The notes under the pieces were generated by a model, which was given only the letters and a program-made list of their open reading frames with translations, made no database searches and was not told where the DNA came from. Both the position numbers and the translations under genes were made by a program. Of a stretch of DNA of 64,000 nucleotides, positions 58,493 through 59,320 are shown one piece after another (within the stretch, counting starts at the first letter, position 1; each line of letters opens with the position of its first letter). Source of the stretch: Micavibrio sp. (GTDB lineage: Bacteria; Pseudomonadota; Alphaproteobacteria; Micavibrionales; Micavibrionaceae); NCBI GenBank assembly GCA_002695035.1, contig NZNU01000053.1, positions 1 through 64,000 on the forward strand, written 5' to 3'.

Positions 58493-58723
58493 TTAATGCA
58501 CGGTAACAGGATACATATCATTATTTAAAACAGAGGCCATCGCCAACTCCGCACTATCATTAACCGCTAATTGCGTACCATCGGCAGCATGAACGGCAAA
58601 ACTAAGCTGTCCATCAACCTTTACCTCACGGATGTAAGCCATCTGATTCATACCCATAGTTTTAAAGTCACGGGTACTCAGTCGTCTTAAGAAATTTTCT
58701 GCGGTTTGAGATTTGTCATTCAT
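58493..58723 (-). CDS. DUF1150 family protein
   Basis: 76 residues. MAYIREVKVDGQLSFAVHAADGTQLAV, cut short here, is the DUF1150 core, a small soluble alphaproteobacterial protein of unknown function. It follows the Hsp20 gene after 36 bases on the same strand, an arrangement conserved in the class, which suggests a role linked to heat stress. The start ATG has AGG about 9 bases upstream. Confidence 0.88.
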   Translation of the reverse strand: MNDKSQTAENFLRRLSTRDFKTMGMNQMAYIREVKVDGQLSFAVHAADGTQLAVNDSAELAMASVLNNDMYPVTVH

Positions 58724-59226: not shown

Positions 59227-59272
59227 ACTCCTTAAGTAGCGAGTGATGTCATCTATGAAGGCCTTAACATCA
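59227..59272 (-). promoter_or_regulatory. ROSE-like RNA thermometer in the Hsp20 leader
   Basis: On the minus strand ACTCGCT pairs with AGGAGT (59227-59244) with one bulged G and a 5-base loop, so the Shine-Dalgarno AGGAG is hidden. TCGCT opposite AGGA with the bulged G is the core feature of ROSE elements. A second hairpin, TGATGT/ACATCA (59244-59272 region), stands just upstream. The predicted leader is about 60 nt. Confidence 0.65.
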
Positions 59273-59290
59273 AGCACCTTCATTTTTTGT

Positions 59291-59320
59291 ACTATACCTT
59301 TATATACGTGAAAAATGCAA
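59291..59320 (-). promoter_or_regulatory. Predicted promoter of the Hsp20-DUF1150 unit
   Basis: On the minus strand TTGCAT (59315-59320), 18 bases, TATAGT (59291-59296). No RpoH-type box was recognised, in keeping with control at the RNA level. Confidence 0.45.

Follow-up and report, generated by a model that had tools for sequence, protein, structure and literature searches.

The gene examined here, hsp20, codes for a small heat-shock protein and lies within a 64,000-nucleotide stretch of DNA, which was analysed at its full length and is referred to as the window. The gene for a DUF1150 protein follows hsp20 and is probably co-transcribed with it, whereas the upstream neighbours are two cytochrome bd oxidase genes. 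The leader preceding hsp20 was suggested in a preliminary description to be a ROSE-like RNA thermometer from a lineage that could not be placed in the rhizobia. The host, an alphaproteobacterium, belongs to the Micavibrio group and has a genome of 2.14 Mb. It falls within the known range of ROSE elements, the alpha- and gammaproteobacteria (PMC4166951), and the occurrence of a ROSE element outside the rhizobia is therefore unsurprising. The features of the locus, together with the dnaK leader from the same genome, are listed in the table.

Table. Features of the hsp20 locus and the dnaK leader of the same genome. Positions refer to the window unless a contig is given; SD, Shine-Dalgarno sequence.
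Feature	Position	Strand	Basis
DUF1150 protein gene	58493..58723	-	PF06620, E = 3.2e-13; 36 nt downstream of hsp20
hsp20, Hsp20/alpha-crystallin small heat-shock protein, 153 aa	58760..59221	-	PF00011, E = 1.7e-17, and open reading frame
SD hairpin: ACUC-(G)-CU, loop ACUUA, AGGAGU	59227..59244	-	RNAfold; R1 match; UYGCU facing the SD near-invariant in relatives
Shine-Dalgarno sequence AGGAG	59228..59232	-	Sequence, 6 nt before AUG
GACAU, possibly pairing with AUGUC (59221-59217) as the 5′ side of an additional closing stem	59246..59250	-	Fold only
Hairpin 1: AUGAAGGU-(G)-CUUG, loop AUGU, UAAGGCCUUCAU	59255..59283	-	RNAfold; covariation; descriptor in relatives' leaders
Promoter region TTGCAT-N18-TATAGT, overlapping TATATAA at 59306-59300	59291..59320	-	Letters given in the preliminary description
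dnaK leader of the same genome, derived layout	L146 / G000:C57:8920-8983		R2 match

The minus-strand sequence of the Hsp20 leader is ACAAAAAAUGAAGGUGCUUGAUGUUAAGGCCUUCAUAGAUGACAUCACUCGCUACUUAAGGAGUUAUAUAUG, and the segment 59283-59227 (-) forms two hairpins with a calculated energy of -18.1 kcal/mol (RNAfold). In the hairpin containing the SD, the ROSE anti-SD motif UCGCU is positioned opposite AGGAG, and a single G (59240) in the 5′ arm remains unpaired. This fold reproduces exactly the hairpin ACTC-G-CT/AGGAGT with one bulged G drawn in the preliminary description. A second hairpin, likewise mentioned there, was found by RNAfold at 59283-59255 and is backed by covariation. In this hairpin 1, the G at 59275 on the 5′ arm is unpaired; the hairpin is probably located at or near the 5′ end of the mRNA. 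The z-score of the folding energy relative to shuffled sequences is only -1.6, and 11 of 200 shuffles are equally good, so the energy of the single sequence is weak evidence. The possible extra stem GACAU/AUGUC, which would also pair the start codon, is present in the window and a 92%-identical sister alone, and these two near-identical sequences provide no covariation support for it.

The letters of the promoter that had been described as vegetative are present upstream of the leader, but its type is not borne out. The sequence TTGCAT-N18-TATAGT at 59320-59291 fails a simple sigma-70 scan, and the corresponding regions of some relatives are RpoH-like. Just upstream of the leader, 10 of 45 relatives have, with equal spacing, the pattern CTTGA-N17-(C/T)TAT, which is that of alphaproteobacterial RpoH promoters; dinucleotide shuffles gave a mean of 0.24 and at most 2. 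In the window itself, CTTG-N17-(C/T)TAT is degenerate. Judged from these sequences, the Hsp20 promoter is probably of a diverged heat-shock (RpoH) type, which is likelier than a vegetative one.

For the comparative analysis, 58 related genomes supplied Hsp20 loci, as did 80 named contigs. Global MAFFT alignments misplaced the cores of hairpin 1 and the SDs, and a clean eight-sequence alignment and model-based alignments were used instead. The covariance model R1 was built from eight Hsp20 leaders from other genera, with the window and its genus left out. The top match of R1 in the 64-kb window is at 59282-59219 (33.7 bits, E = 3.8e-7), and the Hsp20 leader is the sole match in the 2.14 Mb genome (E = 1.3e-5). 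The covariance search that had been suggested thus picks out the leader when this purpose-built model is used, whereas the Rfam ROSE models do not.

Standard pairs occupy 95.6% of the pair cells in the alignment of 51 R1 matches (49 distinct), in comparison with only 47-56% when the partners are shifted by 1 to 3 columns. Because the alignment was fitted to the structure, these counts are biased in its favour, although the gap between the two figures is wide. Among the 49 distinct relatives, compensatory changes were detected in 13 of the 17 pairs overall and in 9 of the 10 pairs of hairpin 1. Variation is low among the pairs of the SD hairpin, for which the support is largely sequence conservation. 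Conservation peaks on the anti-SD strand that faces the SD: there UYGCU, its unpaired G included, is near-invariant in many genera. The bulged-G hairpin, expressed as a descriptor, fits 38 of 45 Hsp20 leaders from the Micavibrio group (shuffle mean 0.25), and in the window it fits 11 of 1706 75-nt tiles.

When 191 alphaproteobacterial genomes were scanned blind with R1, 13 matches were obtained at E <= 0.01, ten of them directly before Hsp20 genes and one before clpB; the scan used stricter filters, missed the window's own copy, and is therefore an undercount. The matches L207, before a sterol-desaturase-like gene, and L209, in no recognisable leader, were judged to be a terminator-like hairpin and noise, respectively. 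R1 does not match at the second Hsp20 gene in the genome of the window (G000:C20, L001), the leader of which is without the two-hairpin ROSE layout. In contrast, paralogous second Hsp20 genes in other Micavibrio-group genomes (L128, L129, L131, and L132) carry SD hairpins of the UUGCU/UCGCU type.

None of the Rfam ROSE families matches the window at its cut-off, and none matches around the leader up to E = 10. The Hsp20 leader of the window does not reach the curated cut-off of ROSE_3 (RF02523, 43 bits). ROSE_3 matches are found at the same position in the Hsp20 leaders of relatives, with 37 bits in L037 (E = 6e-4), 31 bits in G019 (E = 1.5e-4), and 30.7, 25.4, and 24.9 bits in L095, L027, and L009; the 43-bit cut-off is reached by none of the related genomes searched. 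The families ROSE (RF00435) and ROSE_2 (RF01832) matched 0 of 58 related genomes, a negative that is weak for RF00435, of which the controls were also unmatched. A match of snoRNA sn2343 within the hsp20 gene (16.8 bits, cut-off 60) was attributed to chance. The overlapping sub-threshold matches of the leucine, phenylalanine, and tryptophan leader families at L027 2247-2377 probably represent a plain strong terminator hairpin.

The model R1 also matches sequences directly before dnaK in four related genomes (G005, G037, G049, and G024). The bulged-G hairpin is present in 33 of the 50 dnaK leaders inspected (shuffle mean 0.12, maximum 1), and it sits before dnaK in most of the Micavibrio-group genomes examined. 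About nine dnaK leaders contain a canonical ROSE anti-SD strand (e.g., AUCUUGCUU or AACUUGCUU, positioned opposite AAGGAG). Eight are matched by R1 at 30 bits or more (30-52 bits; L134, L135, L136, L142, L153, L164, L171, and L185), and four of these eight are also weak matches of Rfam ROSE_3 at the leader position. The majority of dnaK leaders, from about 25 relatives and the window's own genome, have a derived layout composed of GGGAA, the bulged-G hairpin, UUUGCC, and the SD. In these leaders the SD-like GGGAA, instead of the SD, pairs with UUUGCC around an unpaired G. Covariation is strong in the hairpin and modest in the GGGAA/UUUGCC stem. When the outer stem is formed, the SD would, according to this fold, be left free. 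R2, a covariance model of the derived layout, has the dnaK leader as its sole match in the window's genome (E = 3.9e-8). Among the other sampled alphaproteobacterial genomes it has only two matches, both of which are dnaK leaders from other families. In genome G052, a SAM-I/IV riboswitch adjoins dnaK (L185 465-583 (+), 54.7 bits, above the cut-off of 41.1).

The chaperone gene clpB was considered as a third general target of the bulged-G hairpin and rejected, because only 2 of 15 readable clpB leaders have the hairpin. In a few genomes the hairpin is positioned before clpB without an SD hairpin (L208 1501-1547, L211, and L222). This occurrence hints at a separate function of the hairpin in the mRNAs of chaperones.

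The Hsp20 leader is interpreted here as a two-hairpin ROSE-type RNA thermometer, with a probability of roughly 0.87. The U(U/C)GCU motif is imperfectly paired with the SD in the start-proximal hairpin (UCGCU/AGGAG, with G 59240 unpaired), the number of covariation-backed hairpins in the 5′ UTR is two, within the two to four of ROSE elements, and the leader is directly upstream of a small heat-shock gene (PF00011). Together with the ROSE_3 matches in relatives, these features uphold the initial proposal of a ROSE-like element. Structure, conservation, covariation, and gene association are properties of the leader and its relatives, and the melting, temperature-dependent translation, role of hairpin 1, and RpoH dependence are proposed by analogy with characterised ROSE elements of other organisms. 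At low temperature, the anti-SD strand ACUCGCU would pair imperfectly with AGGAGU, leaving one G unpaired, and ribosome binding would be blocked. Upon warming, the weak SD hairpin would open and the translation of Hsp20 would begin. The more stable hairpin 1 would stay closed, and it probably aids folding or shields the 5′ end of the mRNA. RpoH probably raises transcription, which would result in two layers of heat control.

In a nearest-neighbour melting calculation, the accessibility of the SD in the Hsp20 leader is almost flat with temperature. Calculated in the same way, the known ROSE element in the E. coli ibpA leader is no less flat, and the computed melting is therefore used neither for nor against the thermometer. 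The preliminary description expected deletion of the bulged G to lock the hairpin. In P. aeruginosa, deletion of the G opposite the SD led to strong repression (PMC3669281). In P. putida, deletion of G39 alone lowered expression at 25 °C only slightly, and full locking also needed U38C, by which a G-U pair was strengthened in addition to the G deletion (PMC3669281). Locking by deletion of the bulged G is therefore not universal among ROSE elements. The SD hairpin in the window already has C at the position corresponding to P. putida U38C, which makes the predicted locking upon deletion of G 59240 reasonable.

The near-invariant anti-SD strand also bears on two other explanations. The leader could mainly be a protein-binding site through which Hsp20 or another chaperone represses its own translation until it is titrated by unfolded proteins. 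Such a mechanism operates in E. coli, where IbpA represses its own translation via its 5′ UTR (PMC10474464), and hsp20 and dnaK leaders alike retain the bulged-G hairpin 1, as expected of a common binding site. However, sequence conservation is highest in the anti-SD strand, which faces the SD, and this is directly explained by a thermometer, and no protein partner of the Hsp20 leader is known. Repression by a chaperone as the main function is therefore improbable, but the two mechanisms are not mutually exclusive. Alternatively, transcription by RpoH alone could provide the heat control, with the hairpins just protecting the mRNA at its 5′ end and the SD paired only incidentally. The RpoH-like promoter in relatives fits this explanation, and stabilisation of mRNA by 5′ hairpins is possible (discussed in PMC3669281). 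Protection of the mRNA does not, however, require an imperfect UYGCU with an unpaired G that is near-invariant across many genera, and control by transcription alone is the less probable of the two, with very little chance of being correct. The thermometer thus remains the preferred interpretation of the Hsp20 leader.

The Hsp20 leader is ordinary as a ROSE element, and the extension to dnaK is unexpected. It is possible, at a little under even odds, that ROSE-type leaders also govern dnaK (Hsp70) in alphaproteobacteria, in canonical form in some Micavibrio-group genomes, and that the derived leader of the majority is a new Hsp70 RNA regulator. ROSE elements were described as always tied to small heat-shock genes (PMC4166951), and more recently they were also linked to ABC transporters (PMC11342760). 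No report of ROSE before dnaK was found in the searchable literature, a body of text that most subscription papers lie outside. If true, a ROSE element before dnaK would bring the central chaperone, and not just an accessory one, under this kind of RNA temperature control. The "dnaK motif" PBC-38-1 of enterobacteria is likewise a structured element near dnaK, and is comparable to the dnaK leaders only (PMC11109978). It was identified in the dnaK-satP intergenic region of Enterobacteriaceae and proposed to be a protein-binding or single-stranded DNA element, and ROSE features go unmentioned in the accessible part of its description (PMC11109978). For the Hsp20 genes, the analysis reveals, throughout the Micavibrio group, a probable ROSE-type thermometer that escapes the Rfam models, and the covariation in the leader alignment is sufficient for building a better ROSE model.

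Among the Rfam families, the Hsp20 leader has the architecture of ROSE_3, with two hairpins, one unpaired G in each, a UGC(C/U)/(R)GG core in the first, and UYGCU in the second. The architecture was compared by eye with the printed family consensus, and the same pairs are present in R1/A5. The two hairpins are of similar size to those of ROSE_3, and the unpaired G is at the same place in each. The core UGCC/GGGU in hairpin 1, the strand ACUcGCU opposite AGGAG, and the end just past the start codon are also shared. The window copy differs in being too diverged to score. The leader is most aptly called a diverged, ROSE_3-like element of the ROSE kind, with the kind and architecture of the family but without being a scored member. 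The rhizobial ROSE (RF00435) and enterobacterial ROSE_2 (RF01832) elements employ the same anti-SD principle before the same type of gene, but they are described as having three to four hairpins (PMC3669281), whereas the Hsp20 leader has two. The ROSE-like elements of Pseudomonas ibpA belong to gammaproteobacteria, and their function was demonstrated by reporters, probing, and toeprinting (PMC3669281). In these two-hairpin, sigma-32-transcribed elements, hairpin II melts and hairpin I remains closed (PMC3669281). Like the Hsp20 leader, they contain the UYGCU anti-SD in the 3′ hairpin of two, with an unpaired G opposite the SD, and they precede a small heat-shock gene with a heat-shock sigma promoter (PMC3669281), the type that is also probable for hsp20 in the window.
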